Of a stretch of DNA of 21,358 nucleotides, positions 9,374-20,419 are shown one piece after another; positions within the stretch are counted from its first letter, which is position 1, and each line of letters opens with the position of its first letter. The DNA lies in IMG/VR virus record IMGVR_UViG_3300006334_000174, positions 1 to 21,358 of that record. One strand, 5' to 3'. The notes under the pieces were generated by a model, which worked only from the letters and a program-made list of their open reading frames with translations, did not search any database and was not told the origin of the DNA. This DNA comes from a virus. The position numbers and the translations under genes were made by a program.

Positions 9374-9403
9374 AAAAAAAGATCAACATTTTACTGTTGA
9401 TCT
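9374..9403 (-). terminator. strong intrinsic terminator
   Basis: On the minus strand AGATCAACA pairs perfectly with TGTTGATCT (9 bp) around a 6-base loop, followed at once by at least six T. It lies 11 bases after the DUF8033-like gene stop. It marks the boundary between the accessory/early-middle operons and the late virion block. Confidence 0.9.
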
Positions 9404-9414
9404 GTTTCTGTGTC

Positions 9415-9651: not shown

Positions 9652-9677
9652 GTGTGCCCCTGTTTGTTTATATTATT

Positions 9678-9736
9678 ATAATAACCCATATTCCAGGAGA
9701 GTGGGGTGTATGTGTGCCACTTATTCAACTGGTACA
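9678..9736 (-). promoter_or_regulatory. promoter module A (GTGGCACA-N29-TATTAT)
   Basis: On the minus strand the left half TGTACCAG (9729-9736) and right half GTGGCACA (9713-9720) are 16 bp apart. Exactly 29 bp after the right half comes TATTAT (9678-9683), then AATAATATAAAC and the ATG 26 bases beyond the -10. The heptamer position carries CTCTCCT, not TACCGCA, so this copy is degenerate. The right half overlaps the end of the 62-aa gene's stop region. Confidence 0.6.
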
Positions 9737-9909
9737 TCATAACACATCCCTTCCAGGATCATATACTCACATAGTGGTGTATACTGTGTTAGACTCTCAT
9801 TTAACCCATAATCTATTAGTTGCTGACACATGTCTATTAATTCATCAGGTGGTAATCCTCCACTCTCATATAGGTCTAATAATACCGTGAGTTTGTGCGG
9901 TATAGTCAT
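9721..9909 (-). CDS. 62-aa hypothetical helical phage protein
   Basis: Starts MTIPHKLTVLLDLYESGGLP and continues PDELIDMCQQLIDYGLNESL. The pattern of two amphipathic helices with a LID-x-GL turn resembles a family of small cyanophage proteins of unknown function that usually read LIDTGLAWxLQG. It ends ILEGMCYDVPVE. The ATG overlaps the stop of the 56-aa gene (ATGA), making it the third gene of the operon from promoter S. It is acidic, with no membrane segment. Function unknown. Confidence 0.65.
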   Translation of the reverse strand: MTIPHKLTVLLDLYESGGLPPDELIDMCQQLIDYGLNESLTQYTPLCEYMILEGMCYDVPVE

Positions 9910-10076
9910 ATTTGTCTGCTGTGTCTGTTTGCATCATCTAGTGCTTGAGACTGGGATCGAAATGGACCATATTTCGTACACCCCAAATAATCATACTGCC
10001 AGAAGTATTTCCGAGACTTTTCCCATATCTTTATATTAACTGGGGGACTAGTCGGAAGTTGAAAAACCTTACTCAT
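9906..10076 (-). CDS. 56-aa hypothetical protein
   Basis: Recovered by translation. It begins MSKVFQLPTSPPVNIKIWEK and contains FWQYDYLGCTKYGPFRSQSQ, ending ALDDANRHSRQI. The aromatic strand followed by GPFRSQSQALDDA suggests a small beta-alpha domain; the motif is reminiscent of short cyanophage proteins but I cannot name it. The frame is bounded by ATGA overlaps on both sides (10074-10076 with the upstream gene, 9906-9909 with the downstream gene), which strongly supports it as real. Confidence 0.75.
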   Translation of the reverse strand: MSKVFQLPTSPPVNIKIWEKSRKYFWQYDYLGCTKYGPFRSQSQALDDANRHSRQI

Positions 10077-10219
10077 ATAGACCCCTCCGCGTCCCCTTCC
10101 GTGGGCTGTGGAAAACTCCCTGAGAAAACCTTTTCATTTCTTCTAGGTTTTTCTAGTTGCTTCGCTCTCTTCATCAGGTCATTATACTCTGTAAATGGCG
10201 AAGTAGCATCAAAAGGCAT
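10073..10219 (-). CDS. 48-aa hypothetical protein, first gene of promoter S operon
   Basis: Recovered by translation. It starts MPFDATSPFTEYNDLMKRAK and continues QLEKPRRNEKVFSGSFPQPT, ending EGDAEGSI. There is one basic helix and a Gly/Pro/Ser-rich acidic tail. It lies 39 bases downstream of a perfect sigma-70 promoter and overlaps the next gene by ATGA. A DnaA-box-like TTTTCCACA falls inside its codons for FPQ. GC content is higher than in the neighbours. Not recognised. Confidence 0.7.
   Translation of the reverse strand: MPFDATSPFTEYNDLMKRAKQLEKPRRNEKVFSGSFPQPTEGDAEGSI
10107..10115 (-). other. cyanobacterial-type DnaA box-like site (1)
   Basis: Minus strand TTTTCCACA, inside a 13-bp exact repeat (CTGTGGAAAACTC on the plus strand, 10106-10118) that recurs at 10430-10442. 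TTTTCCACA is the consensus I recall for cyanobacterial DnaA boxes. It lies in coding sequence, so it may be incidental. Confidence 0.3.
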
Positions 10220-10257
10220 AAGCGGGCAAAAAGAGTCAATTACTTAACTTCCTAATT

Positions 10258-10300
10258 ATCATAAGCGATTTGGGGCAAAAAGTCAACCCCCATGTGCCAC
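10258..10300 (-). promoter_or_regulatory. promoter S: canonical sigma-70 promoter with GTGGCACA box
   Basis: Minus strand TTGACT (10281-10286), a 17-bp spacer and TATGAT (10258-10263), an almost ideal sigma-70 promoter. GTGGCACA (10293-10300) lies exactly 29 bp upstream of the -10, the same distance as in the other modules, but the TACCGCA heptamer is absent. It drives the 48-, 56- and 62-aa genes and is probably an early promoter used by host RNA polymerase. Confidence 0.8.
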
Positions 10301-10430
10301 TTGTCTGGGTGTCCTCGTATTACTTGACAAAAAAACTTCGCTGTGTTACGCTCTTAGACAACTGAAAGATACAAGACGTAAGTATATTTATTTTCATATT
10401 TTTATTGTTTCTCACATTGTCTCTTTTGCC

Positions 10431-10439
10431 TGTGGAAAA
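10431..10439 (-). other. cyanobacterial-type DnaA box-like site (2)
   Basis: Second TTTTCCACA on the minus strand, in the same 13-bp exact repeat as the site at 10107-10115 and in the same orientation, 324 bases away. It overlaps the 3' end of the oxygenase gene. Confidence 0.3.
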
Positions 10440-10440
10440 C

Positions 10441-11073
10441 TCACTTATCTGGTATAAAATTAACTGTCATGCTTACACGATCGTCATAGGGGTTACCCTC
10501 GTATCCGTGTGTCATACTGGACGGATAAATTATAAGGTCTCCTTCCTTCATTGGGACGGTTGCTTCAGTCATATTAAATGCTGTATAATCCTTATTAGGG
10601 AATTGCATAACTGGGTAATAACTGCCTGCTACATTCCTTCTAAACTTCAAAGGCGAATGTCCCTCTTGGTAGTTTATTAACAATGTTGCTGAGTAGATAC
10701 AATTAGAATGCTCATGTGGTGCATATAATGCTCCCTTGGATGCTAACTCAAGATATGCATCAGATATGGCAAAATCGAGGTCATAGTAATATGCTCCCTC
10801 GTTGTAGTCTTTGCAACTCTTTAGCAAAAAATCGGCGACGCTCCGATTGTCTTCGAGAATTGTGTTTCTTTTTCCAATTTGTGATACATTGTGAGTTATT
10901 GCTAATCGATCATGCTCTGGTCGGATATCCTGAGTTTCTATCCACTTGAATATCTCTTTTTTAACTGTAGCAAAATTGGGGCAACTATAGACGCCTACTG
11001 GTAGGGCAAAAAGTGCATAAATTTCTGACTTGCCTGCCTTGGGTAGTGAGTCGCTTAGAGGATTAGAGTCCAT
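10441..11073 (-). CDS. 2-oxoglutarate/Fe(II)-dependent oxygenase (1)
   Basis: 210 residues of the double-stranded beta-helix family that hydroxylates substrates with O2 and 2-oxoglutarate. The iron region reads LYAPHEHSNCIYSATLLINY (about 117-136), with His120 and His122 as candidates. The distal part is GDLIIYPSSMTHGYEGNP with His189, and Arg199 in DDRVSMTVNF should bind 2-oxoglutarate. This matches the phage and marine group usually annotated as putative 2OG-Fe(II) oxygenase (H-x-H-x-N...FPS-x-x-x-H...R-x-S). The usual acidic ligand of HxD is not at the +2 position here. It is the last gene of the promoter B operon; its substrate is unknown. The ATG follows a run of six T with no ribosome-binding site. 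Confidence 0.82.
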   Translation of the reverse strand: MDSNPLSDSLPKAGKSEIYALFALPVGVYSCPNFATVKKEIFKWIETQDIRPEHDRLAITHNVSQIGKRNTILEDNRSVADFLLKSCKDYNEGAYYYDLDFAISDAYLELASKGALYAPHEHSNCIYSATLLINYQEGHSPLKFRRNVAGSYYPVMQFPNKDYTAFNMTEATVPMKEGDLIIYPSSMTHGYEGNPYDDRVSMTVNFIPDK

Positions 11074-11092
11074 AAAAAATTTGGCGTCCGCA

Positions 11093-11245
11093 TTAGTGCG
11101 GAATTGTGCGGATTACTAAATCAGGTGGTAGTATTATCTTAACTGGTTTAGTATTCTTATGTATGTTAGTTTTTTGTGCCTGCTGTCCTCTGATTGCTGT
11201 CAAAGTGTCGAGGTCATTCAAAATTTCCTGGAAAATGTCATTCAT
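11093..11245 (-). CDS. 50-aa hypothetical protein
   Basis: Starts MNDIFQEILNDLDTLTAIRG at 11245, 4 bases after the previous stop; an upstream in-frame start would overlap that gene heavily. The N-terminal half is an acidic amphipathic helix, and the C-terminal half is basic with NTKPVKIILPPDLVIRTIPH. No homologue recognised. Confidence 0.55.
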   Translation of the reverse strand: MNDIFQEILNDLDTLTAIRGQQAQKTNIHKNTKPVKIILPPDLVIRTIPH

Positions 11246-11249
11246 AGTA

Positions 11250-11387
11250 TTAATTATAACCTGCTTCCTGTATTTTGTCAAATACTGCTGACTGTTTGTC
11301 AGTTAACTCAAAATCCATATCTCTTAGGATATCGTAGAGTTTGATGATTTCATATTTCTCATCATATGATAGACTTAAATTAATCAT
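11250..11387 (-). CDS. 45-aa hypothetical protein of the INLx repeat family
   Basis: Starts MINLSLSYDEKYEIIKLYDI at 11387 and ends DKQSAVFDKIQEAGYN. The opening INLSLSYDEKYEI followed by a helix and a closing FDKI helix parallels the 55-aa (11607-11774) and 70-aa (12043-12255) proteins, which open INLTIEEHQSL and IDLTIGQYEML. The three are probably diverged tandem copies. A longer GTG-start version would overlap the upstream gene; the ATG 4 bases after that stop is preferred. Confidence 0.6.
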   Translation of the reverse strand: MINLSLSYDEKYEIIKLYDILRDMDFELTDKQSAVFDKIQEAGYN

Positions 11388-11391
11388 GATG

Positions 11392-11604
11392 TTAACCTCG
11401 TATCTCGTATTCAATGTATTCAACAGGATAACCAATAAATTCGCAAATTTGCTCTTTTAGGTCGTTATCGTCCTTCGCTCTCCATCTACCTATGCATCTT
11501 TGGTGCAATACATATTCCTCTTGGGGTGTATATTGCAAATCTGGGTCTCCGTCCCCAACTTCGCTTAGGTATAATTCAAGATCGGTCACTTTGTATAAAT
11601 GCAT
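11392..11604 (-). CDS. 70-aa acidic hypothetical protein
   Basis: Begins MHLYKVTDLELYLSEVGDGD and contains YVLHQRCIGRWRAKDDNDLK, ending QICEFIGYPVEYIEYEIRG. It is strongly acidic with an alpha/beta pattern. It starts 2 bases after the previous stop and ends 4 bases before the next start, so it is embedded in the promoter B operon. It is not recognised; a small ligand- or protein-binding domain is possible but unsupported. Confidence 0.65.
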   Translation of the reverse strand: MHLYKVTDLELYLSEVGDGDPDLQYTPQEEYVLHQRCIGRWRAKDDNDLKEQICEFIGYPVEYIEYEIRG

Positions 11605-11606
11605 AA

Positions 11607-11774
11607 TTAAAAGTCCTCGATTGTGAGATTGTTTACTGCATCAAATACCTTATCCTCCATTGAGTCAAAAGTTTCTGTGTCATATAGGTCACTTCTGTAT
11701 TTCATGCTTTTAGGATGACTTAACAGTTTTGTGAGTGATTGATGCTCTTCGATTGTGAGATTGATTTGTGGCAT
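11607..11774 (-). CDS. 55-aa hypothetical protein of the INLx repeat family
   Basis: ATG at 11774 overlaps the previous stop as TAATG, which fixes the start better than a longer GTG-type alternative. It reads MPQINLTIEEHQSLTKLLSH and ends DSMEDKVFDAVNNLTIEDF. The INLTI strand, the central helix and TETFDSM-DKVFDAV align by eye with the 70-aa protein at 12043-12255 (IDLTI ... TQTFDNMFDAVVNA). Paralogues in one operon suggest a local duplication. Function unknown. Confidence 0.65.
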   Translation of the reverse strand: MPQINLTIEEHQSLTKLLSHPKSMKYRSDLYDTETFDSMEDKVFDAVNNLTIEDF

Positions 11775-11899
11775 TACTGTGCGATCTCCCAAAAACGTGA
11801 ATTTGCGATCTCTTCCGCTTTCGCTTCGTCTCCATTGACTTCTACAAGTGCTTCCTCGTAGAGTGCTTCAATTAGATCGGTGTTTGCTTGGCAACTCAT
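11774..11899 (-). CDS. 41-aa hypothetical protein
   Basis: Recovered by translation: MSCQANTDLIEALYEEALVE, then VNGDEAKAEEIANSRFWEIA and Q. It is an acidic, almost wholly helical protein resembling short cyanophage proteins that open MSCxANTxxLExIYEE. It starts immediately after the previous stop (TAAATG) and ends in a TAATG overlap. Function unknown. Confidence 0.65.
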   Translation of the reverse strand: MSCQANTDLIEALYEEALVEVNGDEAKAEEIANSRFWEIAQ

Positions 11900-12046
11900 T
11901 TAGTCATCCTCCACTATAATGTTTGTTTGAATTTCAAAAAGAAATGGTGTTTCGTTAGTCTCTCTAACGTATGCTTCCATTAAGAGATCGGTAATTGTTT
12001 CTCTCTCCCGATCGGTAAGCAAGTCGTAAACGTCAACTGTCTTCAT
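11900..12046 (-). CDS. 48-aa hypothetical protein
   Basis: Recovered by translation: MKTVDVYDLLTDRERETITD, then LLMEAYVRETNETPFLFEIQ and TNIIVEDD. Two acidic helices are followed by a beta strand. The ATG overlaps the preceding stop (ATGA) and its TAA abuts the next ATG, so it is tightly embedded in the promoter B operon. Not recognised. Confidence 0.65.
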   Translation of the reverse strand: MKTVDVYDLLTDRERETITDLLMEAYVRETNETPFLFEIQTNIIVEDD

Positions 12047-12255
12047 TTTAGATAAGTCTCCGTAGCGTTAACAACTGCGTCAAACATATTATCGAAAGTT
12101 TGAGTATCGATACGAGGTCTCTGGTCATAACCTCTGTCATATGCATCACATAGTAGGTTATAAAGCATTTCGTATTGACCTATTGTAAGATCAATGTTTA
12201 AACCTTTTTTGTTAGAAATTTGCTTTCCGTAAGGTCTGACTCTAGTAGTTGACAT
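12043..12255 (-). CDS. 70-aa hypothetical protein, first gene of promoter B operon
   Basis: Starts MSTTRVRPYGKQISNKKGLN with a basic tail, then IDLTIGQYEMLYNLLCDAYD and a C-terminal helix TFDNMFDAVVNATETYLK. The core from IDLTI onward is a paralogue of the 55-aa protein at 11607-11774, with an added 18-residue basic N-terminus. It is driven by promoter module B and coupled to the next gene by ATGA. Function unknown. Confidence 0.68.
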   Translation of the reverse strand: MSTTRVRPYGKQISNKKGLNIDLTIGQYEMLYNLLCDAYDRGYDQRPRIDTQTFDNMFDAVVNATETYLK

Positions 12256-12285
12256 AATTGAAAACTTTGCTTTGTTTATACTAAT

Positions 12286-12344
12286 ATTATAGTGCTTAAT
12301 TGTATGGTAGTGTGCAAGTATGTGCCACTAATACAACTGTCACA
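12286..12344 (-). promoter_or_regulatory. promoter module B (GTGGCACA-N11-TACCATA-N11-TATAAT)
   Basis: Left half TGTGACAG (12337-12344), right half GTGGCACA (12321-12328), heptamer TACCATA, then TATAAT (12286-12291). All spacings match the other modules: 11, 7 and 11 bp. The leader to the ATG is 30 bases and opens ATTAGTATAAACAAA. It heads an eight-gene operon ending in the first oxygenase. Confidence 0.75.
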
Positions 12345-12363
12345 AATAGGGTTGACATTTTCA

Positions 12364-12699
12364 TCATAGGTATTCTATCTCTCCATTTTCAACTGCATCC
12401 ATGTATTCAACAAAATCGTTATGTGCCTTATCTTTTGTTTCTTGCCATTGATTCCAACATAGTTGTCTGTTAATGTCTAACAACTTGCCTAGGTTAACTC
12501 CTTCGAGGTCTGTCCACTCTGAAACATAACCTATTTGACTTTTATCATATCCTCCACTACTGTAGGATGGTGCACTAAGGAAATTAAAAGCAATGTCAAT
12601 AAAGAAGTGCCTACCAAATTCCTCGCTCTCAATAGTCTGCATAGGAATAAACTCTGTTTCTGTGGTTAGAGTATCTTTAAAAATGTAAGTAGAATTCAT
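12364..12699 (-). CDS. 111-aa acidic hypothetical protein
   Basis: Begins MNSTYIFKDTLTTETEFIPM and ends NDFVEYMDAVENGEIEYL. It is mixed alpha/beta, with a Ser/Gly/Tyr-rich centre SAPSYSSGGYDKSQIGY and a Trp-rich helix NRQLCWNQWQETKDKAHNDF. It has no membrane segment or signal peptide. It starts 5 bases after the stop of the 56-aa gene and is last in its operon; the promoter B dyad begins about 20 bases after its stop. Not recognised. Confidence 0.68.
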   Translation of the reverse strand: MNSTYIFKDTLTTETEFIPMQTIESEEFGRHFFIDIAFNFLSAPSYSSGGYDKSQIGYVSEWTDLEGVNLGKLLDINRQLCWNQWQETKDKAHNDFVEYMDAVENGEIEYL

Positions 12700-12704
12700 T
12701 AGAC

Positions 12705-12875
12705 TTAATCGTATAGTGGATAATAGACTTCTGTGTCAACTGCGTGCTTCATAACCTCATAGGTCGAAAATTCGGGGTCTGATAGGTCTTTACACGTTGA
12801 GAGTATGTTAATAACCTCTTCCATGAGATTTACTATCATTTTCTCTTTTGGTGTGCTTTTGTAAGTTTTCCTCAT
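12705..12875 (-). CDS. 56-aa hypothetical protein
   Basis: Recovered by translation: MRKTYKSTPKEKMIVNLMEE, then VINILSTCKDLSDPEFSTYE and VMKHAVDTEVYYPLYD. It has a basic start, two helices and an aromatic tail. The ATG overlaps the upstream stop as ATGA, and the next start follows 5 bases after its TAA. Function unknown. Confidence 0.62.
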   Translation of the reverse strand: MRKTYKSTPKEKMIVNLMEEVINILSTCKDLSDPEFSTYEVMKHAVDTEVYYPLYD

Positions 12876-13015
12876 GATACTGATTTAAGTTTGTCAAAGT
12901 GTGGATAGAATAGTTGATCAAGTATTTTCTCGGATAATACTTCTTCCTCGTCAGTCATTAGGCATCTATAATGTCTAAATGCTGAATAGATTAGTAAATA
13001 CTCTTCTCTAGTCAT
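12872..13015 (-). CDS. 47-aa hypothetical protein
   Basis: Recovered by translation: MTREEYLLIYSAFRHYRCLM, then TDEEEVLSEKILDQLFYPHF and DKLKSVS. It looks like a compact two-helix acidic protein. It overlaps the upstream gene by 8 bases and the downstream gene by ATGA, typical of this operon. Not recognised. Confidence 0.6.
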   Translation of the reverse strand: MTREEYLLIYSAFRHYRCLMTDEEEVLSEKILDQLFYPHFDKLKSVS

Positions 13016-13154
13016 TTTCTTCCTCCACTAGAAATTGCACATTGAATAATCCTTCAGTATCCTTACCATATTGTGCATATATGGCATTTTTCTCTATAAA
13101 CTCTGCTAAGAGTTTTTCTACCTTAGATCGAGGATAGATTTTGTAGTTAGTCAT
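13008..13154 (-). CDS. 48-aa hypothetical protein
   Basis: ATG at 13154 gives MTNYKIYPRSKVEKLLAEFI and ends GLFNVQFLVEEEND. A longer frame opens upstream, but this ATG overlaps the previous stop (ATGACTAA), which is the local rule. There is one helix and a beta hairpin, and the C-terminus is acidic. Function unknown. Confidence 0.58.
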   Translation of the reverse strand: MTNYKIYPRSKVEKLLAEFIEKNAIYAQYGKDTEGLFNVQFLVEEEND

Positions 13155-13335
13155 CAAGAAAGTCCCTCTCTGATTCGATTGATTGCATAAATTGAGAAAC
13201 AAATTTGTCAACTGTCTCTCTGATCTCCCACCTTGGGGACGGTATTAGATCGCCTTCCTCTCCAAAATAATAAAATTCTTTGTTGAGATTGCTTATCAGG
13301 TTGATTAGTGCTATTTCGTTTTTTGTGTAATCCAT
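13147..13335 (-). CDS. 62-aa hypothetical protein, first of a five-gene operon
   Basis: Starts MDYTKNEIALINLISNLNKE and continues FYYFGEEGDLIPSPRWEIRE, ending SQFMQSIESERDFLDD. Helix, loop, helix layout; acidic. The ATG is preceded by CTCAC, as in other genes that follow a promoter module, and by a weak module-like sequence (13336-13448). Not recognised. Confidence 0.62.
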   Translation of the reverse strand: MDYTKNEIALINLISNLNKEFYYFGEEGDLIPSPRWEIRETVDKFVSQFMQSIESERDFLDD

Positions 13336-13448
13336 GTGAGTTAGAATTGAATTGAGTGAATTGTCTGCACATAATGGTTAATAAGTGTGGACTTACATAA
13401 CTGCTCTTAGTAGGATAACCCCACAATGGTCAATGCCACTAGTGTGGA
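13336..13448 (-). promoter_or_regulatory. intergenic region with a degenerate promoter module (H)
   Basis: It contains GTGGCATT on the minus strand (13432-13439), overlapping a TTGACC. The -10 is unclear: 29 bp downstream the hexamer is AGTTAT, and TATGTA lies 3 bp further. No TACCGCA heptamer is present. The leader to the ATG is about 60 bases, longer than elsewhere. A promoter is expected here from the operon layout, but this copy is weak. Confidence 0.35.
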
Positions 13449-13904
13449 CTACCTATAGTATAGGTGTCCGCCTGCCCAGTCAACTTGCTTATAGTCATGC
13501 ATCATTGCTCTGTGTGACATGATTCTCATATCAAATCTGACTCCCTTAGCGGGTGCCTTCCATGATGATGCCTTATAAACTTCGCCTGTTTTCTTGTCAA
13601 CAAAACTATTGACTGATCTCTGTCTATACTCTTTATGAGTATCAGACCACTCACATTGCACAATTTTATAGTATTTCTTGCCTGCTACTGCTTCAAATTT
13701 CATTAACTTATCTGTGCCATTGCGAATTGCTTCAAGTTGCTCCTCTGCATATGCTGATAAGTCTTCTCTGCTTCCTGTGTATCGTGCTGAGTTGTTTGTC
13801 AACATATTGACCTTATAATGTCTGAAGTTGTCTTCAAGTGCTTCAGTATAGAGGTCAACCCAATTTGGAATAAGTTTTTCGATTGTTGGATTTGAAACAG
13901 TCAT
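13449..13904 (-). CDS. 151-aa conserved phage protein of unknown function
   Basis: Starts MTVSNPTIEKLIPNWVDLYT and ends VDWAGGHLYYR. The middle reads FEAVAGKKYYKIVQCEW (about 70-86), then SVNSFVDKKTGEVYKASSWK (about 99-118) and APAKGVRFDMR. This KKYYKI ... FVDKKTGEVYKxxSWKAPAKGVR block is common in marine T4-like and podophages, where it is annotated as hypothetical. The fold is probably a small beta domain and the surface is basic. It is a single-gene unit from promoter module C. Confidence 0.75.
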   Translation of the reverse strand: MTVSNPTIEKLIPNWVDLYTEALEDNFRHYKVNMLTNNSARYTGSREDLSAYAEEQLEAIRNGTDKLMKFEAVAGKKYYKIVQCEWSDTHKEYRQRSVNSFVDKKTGEVYKASSWKAPAKGVRFDMRIMSHRAMMHDYKQVDWAGGHLYYR

Positions 13905-13927
13905 GTGATTAATTTGTTTATACTATT

Positions 13928-13986
13928 ATTATAGTGGATAATTGTGCGGTAGCACATAGTTATGTGACACTAATTAAAGTGTCACA
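13928..13986 (-). promoter_or_regulatory. promoter module C (perfect dyad, TACCGCA, TATAAT)
   Basis: Left half TGTGACAC (13979-13986) and right half GTGTCACA (13963-13970) form a perfect inverted repeat, followed by N11, TACCGCA, N11 and TATAAT (13928-13933). The ATG lies 23 bases after the -10, with AATCAC directly before it. It is the cleanest copy of the module. Confidence 0.8.
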
Positions 13987-13990
13987 ATAC

Positions 13991-14380
13991 CTATTGCGGT
14001 ATTGCGAAATCTACGTTTATTCTTGCTCCTAACTCAACATAATGCTTAGTCAAGAAGTTTTGATATCTCTTTGCATTAGTGCCTAGGCATCTATCGATCG
14101 CTCTACCATTAAAACTGATCTCTTCAACTTCCCACTTATCATTTTTGATCATGTCATCTATTGACTGATCTGGGTTATACTTACCACCATGAATATTATA
14201 ATATCTGTCGTTAATGTCTGCCATGTAGTAAACTGTAGCGATCTCTTGACCATCTACCTTGATCACACTTGAGAATGCATTATCAGTCTGATACGAATTC
14301 AAAACAGTTACTCCGTTTCGTAATGACCCTGATTCTCTCTTGTCGATCATGTATAAAACTCTTGTTTGAAATCTGTCCAT
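13991..14380 (-). CDS. 129-aa hypothetical protein
   Basis: Begins MDRFQTRVLYMIDKRESGSL and ends YVELGARINVDFAIPQ. The centre has beta strands FSSVIKVDGQEIATVYYMAD followed by NIHGGKYNPDQSIDDMI and a C-terminal helix NAKRYQNFLTKHYVELG. It has no membrane segment. It is a single-gene unit between promoter module D (upstream) and module C, whose dyad starts about 5 bases after its stop. I do not recognise it; a small enzyme or DNA-binding role cannot be told from sequence. Confidence 0.68.
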   Translation of the reverse strand: MDRFQTRVLYMIDKRESGSLRNGVTVLNSYQTDNAFSSVIKVDGQEIATVYYMADINDRYYNIHGGKYNPDQSIDDMIKNDKWEVEEISFNGRAIDRCLGTNAKRYQNFLTKHYVELGARINVDFAIPQ

Positions 14381-14406
14381 GTGTGGTAACCTGATTGATT
14401 ACTCTT

Positions 14407-14465
14407 ATTATAGTCCTCTGAAATGCGGTATAGTGCTCCTGTGTGCCACTAAATCAACTGTCACA
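14407..14465 (-). promoter_or_regulatory. promoter module D (GTGGCACA-N11-TACCGCA-N11-TATAAT)
   Basis: Left half TGTGACAG (14458-14465), right half GTGGCACA (14442-14449), TACCGCA, TATAAT (14407-14412), with exact 11/7/11 spacing. The left half contains the stop codon of the upstream methyltransferase. The leader to the next ATG is 26 bases. Confidence 0.8.
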
Positions 14466-15372
14466 CCCCATTGATACGTTTTTCTGCTAATTCACTATAA
14501 TCACTATGCAATTCACATCCGAGGTAATCACGTCCTAATTGTTTACTTACCATTGCGGTTGTCCCACTACCCATAAATGGGTCGAGGACTAGATCGCCTA
14601 CTCTACTCCCTGCCAAAATACAGGGACTGATCAAGTCAGGTGGAAATACTGCAAAATGTGCTCCCTTATATGGTTTATTGGTTATTGACCATACTGATCT
14701 CTTATTCTTCTTAGGATAACTCTTAGTTAGTCCAGTATGGGGTTGTAATCCAGTCCCCTTATTGTGATACTTACCATTAACCCTATTTCTCACTCCCCAG
14801 TCTTTAGCATCCTCTTTGATTGCTTCATTGTCATAAAAGTATTTCTTATTCTTAGAGAATAAAAAGATATACTCATGAGACTTTGTGCATCTATCTCTTA
14901 CTGATTCTGGCATTGGATTAGGTTTATGCCAAATAATATCTTGCCTTAAAAACCATCCATCCTGACGTAAGGCGAATGCGAGCATCCAAGGAATTCCAAT
15001 TAAATCTTTTTCTTTTAATCCCTCTAACTTATTGCCACGTTTATTACATTTATCAGGTAAATCTTGCTTAGTCTTACTTACTGACTGTTTAGGATATGAC
15101 TGACCTTTTCCTGGTCTATAATTATAATAACTATCCCCAATATTCAACCATAATGTGCCATCATCCATTAAATTATCTCTTACCAGTCGAAAGATATCCA
15201 CCATATTATTAATATATTCTTCGGGTGTTTCTTCCTGACCTACTTGATTCTCTTCTCCACCATAATCCCTTAATCCATAATAGGGTGGACTAGTTACACA
15301 CATTTGTGCCTTATATTGCCATAACTTTGGTAGCGTCTCTCTGACGTCTCCATAATATATTTTATTTCTCAT
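14461..15372 (-). CDS. DNA methyltransferase, beta class (1), apparently orphan
   Basis: Amino-group DNA methyltransferase using S-adenosylmethionine; the product is N4-methylcytosine or N6-methyladenine. It has 303 residues. The catalytic motif IV is TSPPYYGL at 27-34, and the SAM-binding motif I is DPFMGSGTT at 264-272, so the catalytic motif comes first as in the beta class. Between them lie the conserved GTLWLNIGDSYYN (about 93-105) and a target-recognition segment. SPPY is commoner in N4-cytosine enzymes, but N6-adenine enzymes also use it. No endonuclease is adjacent: the upstream neighbour is a 36-aa basic gene overlapping by ATGA. It probably protects phage DNA from host restriction or affects expression. 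It is the last gene of the promoter E operon. Confidence 0.9.
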   Translation of the reverse strand: MRNKIYYGDVRETLPKLWQYKAQMCVTSPPYYGLRDYGGEENQVGQEETPEEYINNMVDIFRLVRDNLMDDGTLWLNIGDSYYNYRPGKGQSYPKQSVSKTKQDLPDKCNKRGNKLEGLKEKDLIGIPWMLAFALRQDGWFLRQDIIWHKPNPMPESVRDRCTKSHEYIFLFSKNKKYFYDNEAIKEDAKDWGVRNRVNGKYHNKGTGLQPHTGLTKSYPKKNKRSVWSITNKPYKGAHFAVFPPDLISPCILAGSRVGDLVLDPFMGSGTTAMVSKQLGRDYLGCELHSDYSELAEKRINGV

Positions 15373-15479
15373 CCGTATAAGTGCATATTGTAATGTTTTC
15401 TAGTTGGTTTATACTTTTGTTTAGGTTTTCTCTTAACCTCTAAGTATATCTTTAATAGTTTATCTGTTTTAAGTTGCAT
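15369..15479 (-). CDS. 36-aa very basic protein coupled to methyltransferase 1
   Basis: Recovered by translation: MQLKTDKLLKIYLEVKRKPK, then QKYKPTRKHYNMHLYG. About a third of residues are Lys, Arg or His. It overlaps the upstream gene by 11 bases and the methyltransferase start by ATGA, so it fits exactly between two genes. It could be a real DNA- or RNA-binding peptide, or a translation-coupling frame. Not recognised. Confidence 0.6.
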   Translation of the reverse strand: MQLKTDKLLKIYLEVKRKPKQKYKPTRKHYNMHLYG

Positions 15480-15702
15480 CTATATCTCTCTCCTCTGGAA
15501 AGTTAATAGGTGTGAAGTCATCCCACTTACACTTGTAAGAAGTGATTAGGGGTGATGCATAGTCACCACTCTCATAATCAATAACGTATGAGCAATGTGC
15601 ATCAAGATATGACTGGACTTCCTCGCATACATGATACAAATTGATCTCTGCATCCTTATTACACTTAACTCTAAGTGTGATCTCTAAAAATTGGTCACTC
15701 AT
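15469..15702 (-). CDS. 77-aa acidic hypothetical protein
   Basis: Starts MSDQFLEITLRVKCNKDAEI and continues NLYHVCEEVQSYLDAHCSYV, ending FPEERDIDAT. The strand-helix-strand layout with FLEITLRVK suggests a small ferredoxin-like fold. It is coupled to the upstream gene by ATGA and overlaps the downstream 36-aa gene by 11 bases. Function unknown. Confidence 0.65.
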   Translation of the reverse strand: MSDQFLEITLRVKCNKDAEINLYHVCEEVQSYLDAHCSYVIDYESGDYASPLITSYKCKWDDFTPINFPEERDIDAT

Positions 15703-15926
15703 GATGGGTTAAAAAAGTTGATAGATTGAATAAGTGTTAATTCATTATGATTATATACTGTCTCTCTGTCTCCATTGTCATCAATTAATACTGTCCAGTT
15801 TTCAGTCGGTGTAAATCCTTTTCTGTCAGTATCGTCCTTGATATAGTTAATCAAAACAGTATATACTTTGTTGTTGTAACTGACTTTATCGCCAATTCCA
15901 ATTTCTCTTTCATTATTATATTTCAT
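15699..15926 (-). CDS. 75-aa SH3-like hypothetical protein
   Basis: ATG at 15926 overlaps the previous stop as TAATG, preferred over an ATG three codons upstream. It reads MKYNNEREIGIGDKVSYNNK, then VYTVLINYIKDDTD and ENWTVLIDDNGDRETVYNHN. The pattern GIGDKVSYNNKVYTVL followed by short strands and ELTLI looks like a small SH3-type barrel, as in many phage proteins. Specific function unknown. Confidence 0.65.
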   Translation of the reverse strand: MKYNNEREIGIGDKVSYNNKVYTVLINYIKDDTDRKGFTPTENWTVLIDDNGDRETVYNHNELTLIQSINFFNPS

Positions 15927-16192
15927 TAACAACATACCTCTCTATTGTCAACAATTTCCGCCCATAATTGACTTGCTTTTTTAGGGTCATCTTCCTCTAC
16001 ATATTCCTTGAGATCGTCATAAATGTGCTCATCAACATTGTCAAATAAATGTCTCTTGAATTCATCCTCTTGCAATTCTTCAACAGACTCAAATAAGTAT
16101 GTTTTTGCCAAATCAATTATGTCATCTAAAAGCATTGAATTAACATAGTAGTCAACAAATTCCTTTTTAATTTCATCTAATTTTGCATTCAT
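15926..16192 (-). CDS. 88-aa acidic helical protein
   Basis: Starts MNAKLDEIKKEFVDYYVNSM at 16192, where the ATG overlaps the preceding stop (ATGA); an upstream ATG is less likely. It continues LLDDIIDLAKTYLFESVEEL with many Asp/Glu, and ends AEIVDNREVCC with a Cys pair at the terminus. Predicted all-helical and very acidic, it may mimic DNA or bind a basic partner, but that is only suggested by charge. Not recognised. Confidence 0.66.
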   Translation of the reverse strand: MNAKLDEIKKEFVDYYVNSMLLDDIIDLAKTYLFESVEELQEDEFKRHLFDNVDEHIYDDLKEYVEEDDPKKASQLWAEIVDNREVCC

Positions 16193-16353
16193 GATAAACC
16201 CTCCCATATTGAAATAAATGTGGTAATCCAGTCAGCATTCTTAACTGACATTGATGATAAATCTTGCTCATCAGCACTTAACATAGGTAGATTGTGATCT
16301 GTGCAATATTGCACATATATGTCACTTAACCAGTTGATTTGATTGTCATTCAT
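16189..16353 (-). CDS. 54-aa conserved small cyanophage protein
   Basis: Recovered by translation: MNDNQINWLSDIYVQYCTDH, then NLPMLSADEQDLSSMSVKNA and DWITTFISIWEGLS. The NWLS...NLPxxSADE...WxTxFxxxWE pattern recurs in a family of very small T4-like cyanophage proteins, of unknown function. Start and stop are in TAATG and ATGA overlaps, which fixes both ends. Confidence 0.72.
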   Translation of the reverse strand: MNDNQINWLSDIYVQYCTDHNLPMLSADEQDLSSMSVKNADWITTFISIWEGLS

Positions 16354-16616
16354 TATGCATGCTCCTTGAAAATTTTCTGAATTCTGTTGTAGTCAACCGC
16401 TCTTGCTTCGATAACCTGATCTCTAACTCTCTCTCTGTCTAGTGAGTCTCCACCACCCCATGTGACGTGGGTGCCTTCTTCACATAAATCTAAAACGTTG
16501 AGAGTTGCAAGTGCTAACTCTTGTCTTGTCAATCCTTGAATAGGATATAAACAGTCAGGATGCTCTGGACTGTAGAATGATTCACAATAGTCTAGGAATT
16601 CTTTGAAGTTGTGCAT
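16353..16616 (-). CDS. 87-aa hypothetical protein, first gene of promoter E operon
   Basis: Starts MHNFKEFLDYCESFYSPEHP and includes YPIQGLTRQELALATLNVLD, ending NRIQKIFKEHA. Helix-rich, with a loop THVTWGGGDSLDRERVR. The family resembles small cyanophage proteins of the form F-Y-x-P-x-x-x-x-Y...A...L, function unknown. The ATG lies 23 bases after the -10 of module E, preceded by AATCACTC. Its stop overlaps the next start (TAATG). Confidence 0.68.
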   Translation of the reverse strand: MHNFKEFLDYCESFYSPEHPDCLYPIQGLTRQELALATLNVLDLCEEGTHVTWGGGDSLDRERVRDQVIEARAVDYNRIQKIFKEHA

Positions 16617-16639
16617 GAGTGATTTGCTTAACTATTAAT

Positions 16640-16698
16640 ATAATAACAAAAAAGCATACAGTAGTGTGTTACTGTATGCCACTATCTGAAGTGTCACA
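16640..16698 (-). promoter_or_regulatory. promoter module E (GTGGCATA-N11-TACTGTA-N11-TATTAT)
   Basis: Left half TGTGACAC (16691-16698), right half GTGGCATA (16675-16682), heptamer TACTGTA and -10 TATTAT (16640-16645), with exact module spacing. The stretch between right half and -10 doubles as an intrinsic terminator. It drives a seven-gene operon ending in methyltransferase 1. Confidence 0.7.
16648..16679 (-). terminator. perfect intrinsic terminator nested inside promoter module E
   Basis: On the minus strand GCATACAGTA pairs perfectly with TACTGTATGC (10 bp, 6-base loop), followed by TTTTTTG. It would end transcripts of the small membrane-protein gene, whose stop codon lies in the loop and stem. 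The second arm is also the promoter's TACTGTA heptamer, so one sequence serves both ends of neighbouring units. Confidence 0.88.
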
Positions 16699-16830
16699 AT
16701 ATGCCTTGTCAACTTGGCATAACTCTTCATATAATCTATTGTTTCTCTCTGATCTATCGATCTTAAGAGTTGTCCTAATCAAATTCAAAAATACAAATGC
16801 AATAAAAATGTAGATTAAGTATGGTCTCAT
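16669..16830 (-). CDS. 53-aa single-pass membrane protein
   Basis: Recovered by translation: MRPYLIYIFIAFVFLNLIRT, then TLKIDRSERNNRLYEELCQV and DKAYCDTSDSGIQ. Residues about 4-19 form one transmembrane helix with a positive residue before it and basic residues after; the rest is a soluble, polar tail. It is a one-gene unit with its own sigma-70 promoter upstream and a perfect terminator over its stop. The last codons overlap promoter module E, so its tail sequence may be shaped by that element. Function unknown. Confidence 0.7.
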   Translation of the reverse strand: MRPYLIYIFIAFVFLNLIRTTLKIDRSERNNRLYEELCQVDKAYCDTSDSGIQ

Positions 16831-16852
16831 GATATTAGATGATGTATGGATT

Positions 16853-16882
16853 ATTATAGCATATTATTAAACTATATGCCAA
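16853..16882 (-). promoter_or_regulatory. sigma-70 promoter for the 53-aa membrane protein
   Basis: Minus strand TTGGCA (16877-16882), 18-bp spacer, TATAAT (16853-16858), ending 22 bases before the ATG. It overlaps the 3' end of the 77-aa gene. It lacks the GTGGCACA box and TACCGCA heptamer, so it is a different promoter type. Confidence 0.65.
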
Positions 16883-17105
16883 CATCCTTATCATTGAGTT
16901 GCTTATAATATGATTTGATTATTGTTTCTTCTTCGTTTTGATTATCCCACTTACTACTCAATTTCTCTAATTTATTACTGACTGACCTATTTAATTCATT
17001 ATGACCAAAATCATGATACTCTCGATCAATAACCTCTATAATATACTTCCACTCATTATGAGTAAAGTATTTAAGGATAGAATTGTAGTCTAGTTTGTTA
17101 TGCAT
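16872..17105 (-). CDS. 77-aa hypothetical protein
   Basis: ATG at 17105, one base after the previous stop (TAAAATG), gives MHNKLDYNSILKYFTHNEWK and ends IIKSYYKQLNDKDVGI. The longer frame from an ATG six codons upstream overlaps the preceding gene. Mostly helical and rich in Asn, Lys and Tyr. It is the last gene of the promoter F operon. Not recognised. Confidence 0.62.
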   Translation of the reverse strand: MHNKLDYNSILKYFTHNEWKYIIEVIDREYHDFGHNELNRSVSNKLEKLSSKWDNQNEEETIIKSYYKQLNDKDVGI

Positions 17106-17106
17106 T

Positions 17107-17277
17107 TTAGTATGATGATTCAATAGTTATTAAATCTTTAGGTGTGTCTTTAACTCTTGCATAGGTTATATCGTCAGTATGATATGACCTATAAATTCGT
17201 CCCCATATGAGATCGAATTCATCTTTGTTTAAGTTTTTAAAGATACATTGATCTTTAAAATAAATGTGATAAGTCAT
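17107..17277 (-). CDS. 56-aa conserved small cyanophage protein
   Basis: Recovered by translation: MTYHIYFKDQCIFKNLNKDE, then FDLIWGRIYRSYHTDDITYA and RVKDTPKDLITIESSY. A protein opening MTYxVYxKxxCIFxNLxxxEF is one of the recurrent tiny proteins of T4-like cyanophages as I remember them; function unknown. The layout is strand, helix, strand. The start lies inside the end of the upstream gene (23-base overlap). Confidence 0.72.
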   Translation of the reverse strand: MTYHIYFKDQCIFKNLNKDEFDLIWGRIYRSYHTDDITYARVKDTPKDLITIESSY

Positions 17278-17458
17278 TTAAGTCCTCTAAAAACATCCAT
17301 TGATACTCTGATTCCTCGGGGTCAACATTGTTAACGATAAACTCATTAAAGATAGCATCACTATTACCAATATTATTATTATTTACATGATGCTGTAATC
17401 TATTCATGTATGTTACTCTCATAGATGAGAGAGCGAATTCAAGGAAATTAGTATTCAT
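17255..17458 (-). CDS. 67-aa hypothetical protein
   Basis: ATG at 17458 gives MNTNFLEFALSSMRVTYMNR and ends EYQWMFLEDLNDLSHLF. It lies within the last codons of the oxygenase upstream (11-base overlap), which argues against a longer start 20 codons further up. Helical N-terminus with RLQHHVNNNNIGN linker and acidic C-terminus. Not recognised. Confidence 0.6.
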   Translation of the reverse strand: MNTNFLEFALSSMRVTYMNRLQHHVNNNNIGNSDAIFNEFIVNNVDPEESEYQWMFLEDLNDLSHLF

Positions 17459-17933
17459 TGTATTGTGGAAAATAATTAATATTAATAACACATCTATCTT
17501 GATGGGATGATGTGCCATAATGGTAGGTATCGGATGGGAAAATCACTATCCTACCACGTTTTGATTCAACCTTAGTCTCTCCTACTACTGTGTAACCATC
17601 ATTATCATTTACATAATAAATGCCAGTCAATGCATTAGGAAATTTGTGGTCGATATGTGGTTTATTACTATAGCATACTTCAGTCCTTAACTGCAAGTTT
17701 GCTTTAATCTTAATAAGTGCACATGCGTGTAACGTAGCAAGTAGGGGCATAATTGGTCTGCAATTAGATTGCTCAAAACCATTGTTGTAAAACATATGCA
17801 CCAGTTGTGATCTTGAATTTACATCAGTCGATACTATCCTACGACAGTATGACCATGAGAATGTGTTACCTAACAAGTGATTCTCAATCTCTTGCTGAGT
17901 ATTCACATCAACAAAATCATCAATTACTTTCAT
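17448..17933 (-). CDS. 2-oxoglutarate/Fe(II)-dependent oxygenase (2)
   Basis: 161 residues starting MKVIDDFVDVNTQQEIENHL. The complete facial triad is visible: His93-Ile-Asp95 in SNKPHIDHKFPN, and His138 in GRIVIFPSDTYHYGTSS, with Arg147 (HQDRCVININ) for 2-oxoglutarate. The strand TGIYYVNDNDGYTVV between them is typical of the phage-type prolyl-hydroxylase-like fold. The substrate is unknown; proposed roles for cyanophage members include nucleic-acid or protein modification and altering host metabolism. It lies 9 bases after the third oxygenase, from which it is highly diverged, in the same operon as the endonuclease and methyltransferase 2. Confidence 0.87.
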   Translation of the reverse strand: MKVIDDFVDVNTQQEIENHLLGNTFSWSYCRRIVSTDVNSRSQLVHMFYNNGFEQSNCRPIMPLLATLHACALIKIKANLQLRTEVCYSNKPHIDHKFPNALTGIYYVNDNDGYTVVGETKVESKRGRIVIFPSDTYHYGTSSHQDRCVININYFPQYNEY

Positions 17934-17942
17934 ATTATATCA

Positions 17943-18479
17943 CTATGCAACTAGTCGTAGTGGGATATCTTGTGACACTTCATTATCTGTTACATCATAT
18001 ATTGACCCGAGGGTTACTCTTATGCCACTATCAGGCGGTAGTCCCATGTGATATAGATGACTAGGAAATATAATCGCTTGACCCATATTAAATGGCACTC
18101 GCTTAACTATTTCGTTAGCATCATTGTAAAATACTGTGTCTCCTGTTTCGCCTGCTACATGATATACAACTGACATGAGACTTGACATATCTCCGTCGTT
18201 ATGTATCTGACTATCCATATTTGGAAATTGCACATTCAATAGTGTCCTTAAAGTCTTGGCATGTAGTCGGTGCTCCATGAGAGCATTAAAGTATTTGATA
18301 AACCACTCGTCCTCATAACCCACAAATTGTCCATTTTGCACTATCATTGTGCCAAAAAAACGTGCCCTATCATAGTCAGCATATGGACTGTTTGTCCATC
18401 TAACTGGGTATTCACTTAATCTACTTGCAACTGAGTCAACTAACCAGTCATCAAATAGACCACTAACAACTTCGATCAA
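17943..18479 (-). CDS. 2-oxoglutarate/Fe(II)-dependent oxygenase (3)
   Basis: 178 residues. Iron ligands are His93-Asn-Asp95 in DSQIHNDGDMSS and His144 in IIFPSHLYHMGLPPDSG; Arg154 (GIRVTLGSIYD) should bind 2-oxoglutarate. The core VVYHVAGETGDTVFYND is typical of the double-stranded beta helix. The start is TTG at 18479, overlapping the previous stop as TTGA; it gives MIEVVSGLFDDWLVDSVASR, which matches how related phage oxygenases begin, and no ATG fits. It sits directly before oxygenase 2, so the pair may act together or on successive substrates. Confidence 0.87.
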   Translation of the reverse strand: MIEVVSGLFDDWLVDSVASRLSEYPVRWTNSPYADYDRARFFGTMIVQNGQFVGYEDEWFIKYFNALMEHRLHAKTLRTLLNVQFPNMDSQIHNDGDMSSLMSVVYHVAGETGDTVFYNDANEIVKRVPFNMGQAIIFPSHLYHMGLPPDSGIRVTLGSIYDVTDNEVSQDIPLRLVA

Positions 18480-18673
18480 AAACCTTTACCTCGCTTTTTA
18501 GGTTTATCTATTACTTCAATTCTATCTATAAACATTCGTTTATTCCACCACGTCTCTTGGACTTCTTGCCATGATTCCATGACTTTTGTGCTCTGATCGG
18601 TGCATATAATTCTATAGTGATGCCTATCGTAAGGTTTATCACTTGTCTGTGTGAAGTAATCGGGTAGCGTCAT
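18476..18673 (-). CDS. 65-aa hypothetical protein
   Basis: Starts MTLPDYFTQTSDKPYDRHHY and contains CTDQSTKVMESWQEVQETWW, ending DKPKKRGKGF. The two beta strands, Trp-rich helix and basic C-terminal tail resemble small cyanophage proteins of the form YRIIC...FESWQEVQETWW...I-V-I. ATGA overlap with the upstream gene and TTGA overlap with oxygenase 3. Function unknown. Confidence 0.68.
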   Translation of the reverse strand: MTLPDYFTQTSDKPYDRHHYRIICTDQSTKVMESWQEVQETWWNKRMFIDRIEVIDKPKKRGKGF

Positions 18674-18888
18674 AATCTGTTGTTTAGTAATTGAATTTTC
18701 CAGTTATCATCCCCACCGTCTAGTCTATCAACCCAAAACCAGAAGTCAGGATAGTCAGGTGCTGAGCAAAATACTCTGTGTCCCCTGATCTCTTCAACAA
18801 TTACCTCATTCTTATTGTTGAGATACTTATTGAATATATGCTGTGCCTTATTTGACTTAGGCACTACAAGTGCTCTATTCTTTAGCAA
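18670..18888 (-). CDS. 72-aa conserved small cyanophage protein
   Basis: TTG start at 18888 overlapping the methyltransferase 2 stop (TTGCTAA). It reads MLKNRALVVPKSNKAQHIFN, then GHRVFCSAPDYPDFWFWVDR and GGDDNWKIQLLNNRL. LKNRALVVPKSNKA at the N-terminus and FWV...NWxI near the end match a recurrent tiny cyanophage protein of unknown function, which supports the TTG start. It ends in an ATGA overlap. Confidence 0.7.
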   Translation of the reverse strand: MLKNRALVVPKSNKAQHIFNKYLNNKNEVIVEEIRGHRVFCSAPDYPDFWFWVDRLDGGDDNWKIQLLNNRL

Positions 18889-19739
18889 TGGTCTAAATCC
18901 TCAATTAGTAGTCTAGTTAATAGGTTATCTTTAAATGGTAGCATTCGATCAACACACATTTTGTGATATGTTTTATCAATCTCAAAACCTATGTATCGTC
19001 TATTCTCTTCCATTGATACTTGTGCTGTAGTGCCTGCACCCATAAATGGGTCGAGGACTATATCGTTGACACTTGACCACGTTTTAATGTGACCTCGTGC
19101 CAACTCCTCAGGCATTGTTGCAGGATGTTTATATGATGCTTTACTACTTTGTCCAAAACCACCACTATTTTTAATTCTCCATATGTTTGTCCTTACTCCC
19201 CACTCCTTAATCGCATTGCTTTTACGATTAGGGTCATTTGTTGTGCCATCCTTATTGCGTGATGTAGCATTGCCCCATGATGTTATCCCTGCCCACTTGT
19301 TTTTCTTGTCTTGTATCAAATTGATTGTCTTGGGACGTCCCTTAGATAATATGAAACAATACTCAAATACTTGAGTGTATCTTACTGAGTGGACTCCACT
19401 AGCGAATGCTGTGCCTGTTTTCTCATAGATCATTGTGTCATGTAATCTCAACCCGAGATCCATAAAGTGTAAACATTGACGAAAACTAGATCCAGTTTCA
19501 GACCCCTTGATCGTAGCGTCGTTAACATTCCACATTATGACCCCACCGTCCTTGAGCACTCTAACTAATCCCTTAGCAACATCCTTGAATACATCAAAAT
19601 CCCACTTACTACTATCGTTGTATGTCCTTAGATCATCATATGGTGGGGATGTTACCACCAAATCTACTGACTTTTCATCCATGAGTTGCATACCTTCTAT
19701 GCAATTCATTAAGTAGGTGTTATTAGTTGATATCTTCAT
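18882..19739 (-). CDS. DNA methyltransferase, beta class (2), partner of adjacent endonuclease
   Basis: 285 residues. Catalytic motif IV is TSPPYDDL at 30-37, and SAM-binding motif I is DPFMGAGTT at 230-238, the beta-class order. Between them are WNVNDATIKGSETGSSFRQC (about 95-114), a mid-region RYTQVFEYCFILSKGRPKTI and a target-recognition stretch with GITSWGNATSRNKDG. SPPY suggests N4-cytosine but does not exclude N6-adenine. The ATG lies inside the last codons of the upstream endonuclease (17-base overlap), the organisation of a type II restriction-modification pair with the nuclease first. The remaining operon continues into small genes and two oxygenases. It shares little beyond the motifs with methyltransferase 1, so the two need not have the same target. 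Confidence 0.9.
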   Translation of the reverse strand: MKISTNNTYLMNCIEGMQLMDEKSVDLVVTSPPYDDLRTYNDSSKWDFDVFKDVAKGLVRVLKDGGVIMWNVNDATIKGSETGSSFRQCLHFMDLGLRLHDTMIYEKTGTAFASGVHSVRYTQVFEYCFILSKGRPKTINLIQDKKNKWAGITSWGNATSRNKDGTTNDPNRKSNAIKEWGVRTNIWRIKNSGGFGQSSKASYKHPATMPEELARGHIKTWSSVNDIVLDPFMGAGTTAQVSMEENRRYIGFEIDKTYHKMCVDRMLPFKDNLLTRLLIEDLDHC

Positions 19740-20337
19740 ATACTGTGTGGATAAATTTTTGTGTCCTTCTTACACTACCAAAGATAGGTGTAACGCACAT
19801 TTTGTCTTCGTTGTGAATTCTAAGAGTAGAGAATCCATTGTTGTTTTTACCAGTTTTTGTTACTGAGTCAGTCCATCCTGTTGCTTCATTCTGTTTAAGA
19901 GATAAGTCAACAATACAAGCAAATACACTTGGAAAGTCATTTTCTTTCTGTGTAAACTTGATGCAAAATATCTTGTCAACCTTAGTCTTACTATGATTGT
20001 TACCAGTAGCGAATGATGATGTGCTACTACCTAGTGACATTTTATTCTCGATCTCGTGCTCTAATAGTATAGCATCATAACCAACTGTCTCCTCTGTAAT
20101 GTAGTCAACACCTAACTCTTTTGCTGAGTCCTCAAGTGCAGGATTAAATATGTTTGCAAGAAACTTAGTCTTGTCAACTGTATTGTCTGCACCAAAGAAT
20201 GAGTCTAGGTCTGGTTTTTTACCACCACTACCGATCTCTAACATTTGTGCAACTCTACTAGTTGTCAATTCAATCGCTCTTGGAATAATAAGTGATAATG
20301 CTTCACTTAGTTGTCTGTTGTCTGCTCTGAGTTTCAT
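19723..20337 (-). CDS. probable type II restriction endonuclease (PD-(D/E)xK-like)
   Basis: 204 residues starting MKLRADNRQLSEALSLIIPR. A helical N-terminal domain (1-75) leads to VGYDAILLEHEIENKMSLGS, where Asp88 and Glu97-Asn-Lys99 fit the D...ExK active site of the PD-(D/E)xK nuclease fold. After it come SSTSSFATGNNHSKTKVDKI and strands FCIKFTQ and FACIVDLSL, a layout seen in type II restriction enzymes. The gene overlaps methyltransferase 2 by 17 bases and is first in the operon from promoter F. I recognise no close named enzyme, so the recognition site is unknown, and a non-restriction nuclease is possible. Assignment is by active-site pattern plus context. Confidence 0.68.
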   Translation of the reverse strand: MKLRADNRQLSEALSLIIPRAIELTTSRVAQMLEIGSGGKKPDLDSFFGADNTVDKTKFLANIFNPALEDSAKELGVDYITEETVGYDAILLEHEIENKMSLGSSTSSFATGNNHSKTKVDKIFCIKFTQKENDFPSVFACIVDLSLKQNEATGWTDSVTKTGKNNNGFSTLRIHNEDKMCVTPIFGSVRRTQKFIHTVYEDIN

Positions 20338-20360
20338 GTGATTAATGTCTGAATACTCTT

Positions 20361-20419
20361 ATTATACTAGTTAACCATGCGGTAGTGTATAATAGTGGTC
20401 AGTTTCTCAACTGACACAC
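20361..20419 (-). promoter_or_regulatory. promoter module F (TACCGCA-N11-TATAAT)
   Basis: TACCGCA, exactly 11 bp, then TATAAT (20361-20366), with 23 bases to the endonuclease ATG and AATCAC before it, as in module C. The upstream dyad is diverged: TCAGTT/AACTGA in place of the GTGGCACA half, but it occupies the same position. The stop codon of the small membrane-protein gene lies next to the -10. Confidence 0.75.

Follow-up and report, generated by a model that had tools for sequence, protein, structure and literature searches.

T4-like cyanophages turn on their earliest genes without using Alt, ModA, MotA, or AsiA. In one 21,358-nt viral stretch (positions 1 to 21,358 of IMG/VR record IMGVR_UViG_3300006334_000174; here "the window" throughout), intergenic sites on the minus strand pair a palindromic dyad with a TATAAT-like -10 hexamer at a nearly constant distance. 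A preliminary description had named seven such sites, referred to here as A, S, B, C, D, E, and F, and all seven are present; it had also proposed that a heptamer between the dyad and the -10 serves as a MotA-like activator box. We analyzed 11 complete T4-like cyanophage isolate genomes, the window, and 120 IMG/VR stretches, which yielded a pooled set of 478 distinct sites that are mutually <80% identical. We consider it reasonably probable that these sites form a promoter class of T4-like cyanophages in which a dimeric and probably phage-borne activator, bound to the dyad at about -53, replaces the -35 element.

Spacing, range, and placement of the dyad promoters

Across the family the sites follow the pattern TGTGMCASTT-N4-AASTGKCACA, then 28 to 30 bp (mode, 29), then TATAAT, with an ATG about 30 nt downstream. 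Dyads with a half-site gap of 10 are overrepresented in each of the 11 isolate genomes, and for dyads in these genomes with no more than one mismatch, a TATAAT-like hexamer lies at 28, 29, and 30 bp in 8, 37, and 16 cases, respectively, while no other dyad-to-hexamer offset between 0 and 100 exceeds 8. In a scan of IMG/VR that allowed any gap between 15 and 45 bp, 98 of the matches listed had a gap of 29, 34 a gap of 30, and 12 a gap of 28, with 33 spread over the other 28 gaps. The same free-gap pattern gave a near-flat histogram in bacterial and archaeal genomes (14 matches at gap 29, 3 of them from one P-TIM40-like contig filed under Nonlabens). A weight-matrix scan recovered 6 to 21 sites per T4-like cyanophage (3 to 16 at a stricter cutoff) versus 0 to 0.3 in shuffled sequence and 0 in reversed sequence. 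The rigid architecture that had been claimed from the window alone is strongly supported across the cyanophage family, in isolate genomes and IMG/VR stretches alike. A fixed distance from an upstream site to the -10 is a hallmark of activator-dependent promoters, and the TATAAT hexamer itself is that of canonical sigma-70 promoters.

Sites were found in all 12 T4-like cyanophage isolate genomes counted, 11 by weight matrix and the freshwater phage S-CRM01 by pattern; a search of others by pattern only recovered one site in S-ShM2 and five in Syn30. The dyad promoter was also sought in T4, S-TIM5, Ma-LMM01, the T7-like phage P-SSP7, and the siphovirus P-SS2, and none of these contains it.

Most sites stand shortly before genes. 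For 123 sites from complete genomes and the window, an ATG that opens an open reading frame (ORF) of at least 35 amino acids lies within 6 to 45 nt of the -10 in 80.5% of cases (median, 30 nt), versus 16% for random positions. Site orientation tracks gene strand, and the inverted P-HM2 block PHM2_056-064 has inverted sites. Further sites precede a peptidase gene adjoining gp46 (P-RSM4, Syn9, and P-HM2), cobS (P-HM2), or a cAMP phosphodiesterase gene (P-RSM4). On the other side, the dyad is often fused to the 3' end of the preceding gene: that gene ends on the TGA of TGTGACA at window site D, at P-TIM40 gp074, gp077, and gp079, and in P-RSM4, and a TGA stop falls inside the left half in 47 of 135 TGTGA sites. 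A single dyad at P-HM2 39292-39315, between the divergent genes PHM2_064 and PHM2_066, has a -10 at 28 to 30 bp on each side and, judging from this arrangement, is apparently a bidirectional promoter. We do not extend this to every dyad, as only the P-HM2 case at 39.3 kb is flanked by genes on both sides, and antisense -10 hexamers elsewhere (e.g., at window 14442, plus strand) lie in coding sequence.

Contents of the spacer

In gap-29 sites (sets of 53 and 280 sites), the columns of the dyad and the -10 are highly informative, those of the A-rich start region moderately so, and those of the spacer almost uninformative. The constants of this promoter class are the dyad and the -10 rather than a MotA-like box, since outside the P-TIM40 lineage the spacer is free sequence, a canonical -35, or a complete terminator. 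Most sites lack a canonical -35 (TTGACA at 16 to 18 bp): 12 of the 478 have TTGAC at a distance of 17 bp, the canonical one (0.4 expected), and 5 of 61 sites in the isolate genomes have a -35 matching at least five of six letters (0.9 expected).

A complete intrinsic terminator lies within the spacer at 47 of the 478 sites, compared to 0.85 expected from shuffles (maximum, 3). These spacers retain the 28- to 30-bp spacing, and the terminators usually begin 0 to 5 bp from the dyad with the T-tract pointing to the -10. A terminator within a promoter looks like a new feature, one in which the -35 region of a promoter is usable for a terminator. At window site E, the terminator (16646..16680, minus strand; stem GCATACAGTA/TACTGTATGC followed by TTTTTT) overlaps the right half of the dyad and fills the spacer; because it starts within the dyad and the count covered the spacer only, it is not among the 47. 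The P-TIM40 orthologue keeps this hairpin (stem GCACATGGTA/TACCGTGTGC) with two compensatory changes and one G-U pair, and the window and P-TIM40 hairpins, at -15.0 and -16.6 kcal/mol, have an identical structure.

A related known arrangement is the promoter-early stem-loop (PeSL), which carries a stem-loop beside an ordinary sigma-70 promoter; here the terminator is instead inside the promoter, between the upstream dyad and the -10. PeSL cassettes, known from T4-like phages (Arbiol 2010; Comeau 2014, cited in PMC4503421), resemble the dyad promoters in being compact units of terminator and early promoter between small genes of hyperplastic regions. A terminator joined to an early promoter, as in a PeSL, is found in 47 of the 478 spacers, a minority of sites. 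In S-PM2, where PeSLs were judged sparse, a stem-loop at 11369-11391 was listed as a possible PeSL stem-loop (PMC4503421); it is the spacer terminator of the dyad promoter at 11347 (site 11347-11399). The dyad promoter around that stem-loop is not listed in the same paper. PeSLs are also associated with recombination and gene shuffling; the one mapped deletion found, that of the S-PM2 ORFanage at 5,799-15,339 (PMC4503421), has ends that do not coincide with the dyads.

A putative activator on the dyad and its rivals

An activator bound to the dyad would best explain these promoters because their distance is strict, the -35 has been lost, and a terminator can stand where it would be. The RNA polymerase of the host, carrying the primary sigma factor, would read the TATAAT and the A-rich start region, and a dimeric protein on the 24-bp dyad (approximately -65 to -42, centered at about -53.5) would recruit the polymerase instead of a -35, contacting it in place of sigma region 4. 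Recruitment from the dyad would fix the distance at 29 ± 1 bp, and a spacer with no need of a -35 would thereby be free to hold the terminator of the upstream gene, with the stop of one gene and the start of the next packed into approximately 60 bp. The genes served by this class would mainly be the small ones of the hyperplastic region, which extends between the helicase/methyltransferase block and gp25. As hosts do not use the site, the protein would most likely be phage-borne, either brought in with the virion or produced from an immediate-early gene. Class I activator promoters of the CRP type likewise have a palindrome upstream of the -35 position at a fixed distance, but their palindromes are centered at -61.5 or -41.5, and the dyad promoters differ further in their half-sites, their half-site spacing, and the usual lack of a -35.

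Doron et al. 2016 reportedly described a novel element that controls early genes in Syn9 and P-TIM40 and is conserved among T4-like cyanophages, and the dyad is likely to be that element; the dyad promoters likewise occur in P-TIM40 and across the family. Early timing of the genes behind these promoters is suggested by their genome position and by that reported element. If the two are the same, the promoter class is known, and what is added here is large-scale spacing statistics, the range of the class, the test at the DNA level, the terminators embedded in the spacer, and a lineage-specific heptamer. In either case, the dyad promoter is a precise and countable signal (approximately 3 to 16 sites per genome) with a strict spacing rule, which gives reason to seek a phage-borne activator and would allow early-type transcription units to be called directly from metagenomic contigs.

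Several observations weigh against an activator of this kind. S-WAM1 has few sites, and S-SZBM1 has none at the strictness tested. Of 151 host-family genomes, 9 contain near-match dyads that lack the promoter spacing, and one of these 9 also has a match to the promoter pattern. Prochlorococcus promoters often have no clear -35, so a missing -35 alone is no proof of activator dependence. A dyad-binding protein was sought among phage proteins, and none was found. One candidate, a 54-amino-acid AbrB/MazE-like protein (phrog_661; window 8579-8743), is present in nearly all Kyanoviridae tested and lies near gp25 in several, but its absence from P-HM2 and S-CRM01, both of which have dyads, weakens it as the dyad factor. 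Thirteen ORFs of no more than 250 amino acids are common to all 12 other dyad phages and were not found in T4 and S-TIM5; the shared ORFs scanned (exonuclease, gp33, terminase small subunit, gp3, UvsY, Sm-like, MazG, structural, and DUF proteins) include no evident DNA binder. In its most specific form, the proposal is that Kyanoviridae carry a phage-delivered dimeric activator of an unrecognized family that recognizes a 24-bp dyad whose halves tend to be unlike (one ending CAG, the other CAC) and replaces recognition of the -35 by sigma region 4 so fully that a terminator can occupy the -35 region; we consider this version less likely than not.

The dyad could instead be an operator through which a phage repressor turns transcription off at a later stage of infection, and the promoters would then be plain host-type sigma-70 promoters in all other respects. 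Palindromic promoter sites are typical of repressors, and the 12 sites with a canonical -35 at 17 bp could be strong unaided. An operator at -42 to -65 needs no distance of 29 ± 1 bp, however, yet this distance is tightly kept, and most sites have no -35 while many have a terminator there, which makes a repressor an unlikely explanation.

A Prochlorococcus or Synechococcus transcription factor that binds the dyad and is hijacked by the phage is slightly less likely still. A host factor would explain activity right after injection, and the near-match dyads in nine host-family genomes are in its favor, but 142 of the 151 genomes have no dyad even when two mismatches are allowed, and the promoter arrangement is essentially absent from hosts, with two matches in 300 host-family genomes, which leaves a host regulon unsupported. 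The Prochlorococcus phages of T7-like and siphovirus type also lack dyad promoters. By our reading of the ORFs, the dyad-like palindromes in some host-family genomes adjoin putative genes for an integrase, a PglX-like methylase, or PIN or NACHT proteins, and they could mark mobile islands or satellites.

The dyad might also act at the RNA level, as a stem-loop that ends the upstream transcript (a terminator or processing signal comparable to the PeSL stem-loop), with its distance to the -10 a product of packing. The frequent overlap of the dyad with the end of the upstream gene, including TGA stops in the left half, and the many terminator-bearing spacers would suit such a role. The pair statistics of the 478 sites point the other way. 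Complementary bases are underrepresented at dyad pair 8/17 (132 of 478 versus 202 expected; Fisher p ~1e-13), G/G is the commonest pair, and G/G and C/C are favored over G/C and C/G, so that unlike halves are preferred, one ending CAG and the other CAC; the remaining pairs are near independence. The dyad is conserved in base sequence rather than in pairing, and the depletion at 8/17 fits recognition of DNA by a protein and leads us to reject an RNA hairpin. Moreover, the actual terminators are found in the spacer, downstream of the dyad, and mere packing would leave 29 bp unfixed; we give a role in RNA very little weight. The preliminary description had taken the dyad for a protein site, and this conservation at the DNA level lends that view strong support family-wide, although binding itself is deduced from sequence. 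The preference for unlike halves is perhaps avoidance of perfect palindromes owing to the SbcCD-like gp46/47 of the phage, which is a guess on our part.

The heptamer TACCGCA was emphasized in the preliminary description. It is present in window sites C, D, and F, has related versions in B (TACCATA) and E, and is absent from A and S. Its 11-bp offset to the -10 is exact in C, D, F (as had been claimed for F despite the diverged dyad there), and P-TIM40 53796. With 0 to 2 mismatches it stands 11 bp before the -10 in 6 of 9 P-TIM40 sites, while in nine other phages 1 of 52 sites comes within 2 mismatches; in the pooled set, 4 of 478 sites are within 1 mismatch, all from P-TIM40 or the window, so a counterpart of the T4 MotA box, which lies about 11 to 13 bp upstream of the -10, is not a family-wide feature. 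Since CACTACCG is retained between orthologous window and P-TIM40 promoters despite diverged flanks, the heptamer may be a lineage-specific second element in the P-TIM40 lineage. T4 middle promoters (MotA/AsiA) share with the dyad promoters a sigma-70-type -10 and a substitute for the -35, but that substitute is a MotA box at about -30, in contrast to a conserved 24-bp dyad at about -53. That TACCGCA is the main, MotA-like activator box and the dyad an accessory is the least probable reading of all, despite the exact offset and the survival of CACTACCG, because the heptamer is confined to one lineage, its columns are unconstrained in the family, its stretch of the spacer is overwritten elsewhere by terminators or a -35 (at site E its letters are one arm of the terminator hairpin), and cyanomyoviruses lack motA and asiA (reviewed in PMC2984593; see also PMC5780444), as the preliminary description had supposed for MotA.

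Sites and context of the window

In the window, TGTGMCA/TGKCACA occurs six times at a half-site gap of 10, versus a mean of 0.7 at other gaps and 0 in reversed sequence, and a position-weight matrix built from the isolate genomes detected 11 sites versus 0 in shuffled or reversed sequence. The left half was said to lie 16 bp upstream of the right half, which is true of the half-site starts; 8 bp separate the halves, giving a 24-bp dyad. The exact 29 bp from right half to -10 that had been given for all seven sites holds in every site but F, which has 28 bp and whose right half (CTGACCAC) is diverged. Sites B, C, D, and E have good left halves; those of A (TGTACCAG) and F (TGTGTCAG) are off by one, and that of S (GAGGACAC) is poor.

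All of the following features are on the minus strand. Site A (dyad TGTACCAGTTGAATAAGTGGCACA, 9713..9736; -10 TATTAT, 9678..9683) precedes the ORF at 9415-9651. Site S (10293..10316; -10 TATGAT, 10258..10263) combines a good right half, GTGGCACA, with the poor left half, and its spacer contains a canonical -35 (TTGACT-17-TATGAT), a textbook promoter inside the same frame. Site B (dyad TGTGACAGTTGTATTAGTGGCACA, 12321..12344; -10 TATAAT, 12286..12291) precedes the ORF at 12043-12255. Site C, whose dyad TGTGACACTTTAATTAGTGTCACA (13963..13986; -10 TATAAT, 13928..13933) is a perfect 24-bp palindrome, precedes a DUF7717 ORF (13449-13904), and site D (dyad TGTGACAGTTGATTTAGTGGCACA, 14442..14465; -10 TATAAT, 14407..14412) precedes the ORF at 13991-14380; the upstream methyltransferase ORF (14461-15372) ends on the left-half TGA of site D. 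Site E (dyad TGTGACACTTCAGATAGTGGCATA, 16675..16698; -10 TATTAT, 16640..16645) precedes the ORF at 16353-16616. Site F (diverged dyad TGTGTCAGTTGAGAAACTGACCAC, 20395..20418; -10 TATAAT, 20361..20366) precedes the ORF at 19723-20337 and is orthologous to P-TIM40 46479. A weak extra dyad, TGTAACAGATAATGAAGTGTCACA (17971..17994; gap 31), is doubtful as a promoter because its -10 abuts the ATG of the ORF at 17448-17933.

From about position 1030 onward the window is T4-like cyanophage DNA resembling Libanvirus. In the region searched its best match is P-TIM40 (Kyanoviridae, Libanvirus), with 81% identity over the matched parts, and its gene order resembles that of P-TIM40 in the part compared. The syntenic region of P-TIM40, at 48.9-55.0 kb, holds 8 of the 10 P-TIM40 dyad promoters; it lies between the methyltransferase/helicase block on one side and the tail genes on the other. 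Positions 1-1029 carry topA and an NDH subunit gene in chromosomal DNA of Prochlorococcus type (93 to 95% identical to approximately 15 host-family genomes). Because this match stops abruptly at about 1030, next to a phage virion-protein gene, the left end of the contig is probably a chimeric addition; the dyad promoters sit far to the right of this join. Dyad promoters nearly identical to those of P-TIM40 are also present in NZ_RMVE01000006.1 (188,235 bp), a contig filed under Nonlabens xiamenensis, and since it is nearly as long as a whole P-TIM40-like phage genome, that assembly appears to contain a cyanophage.

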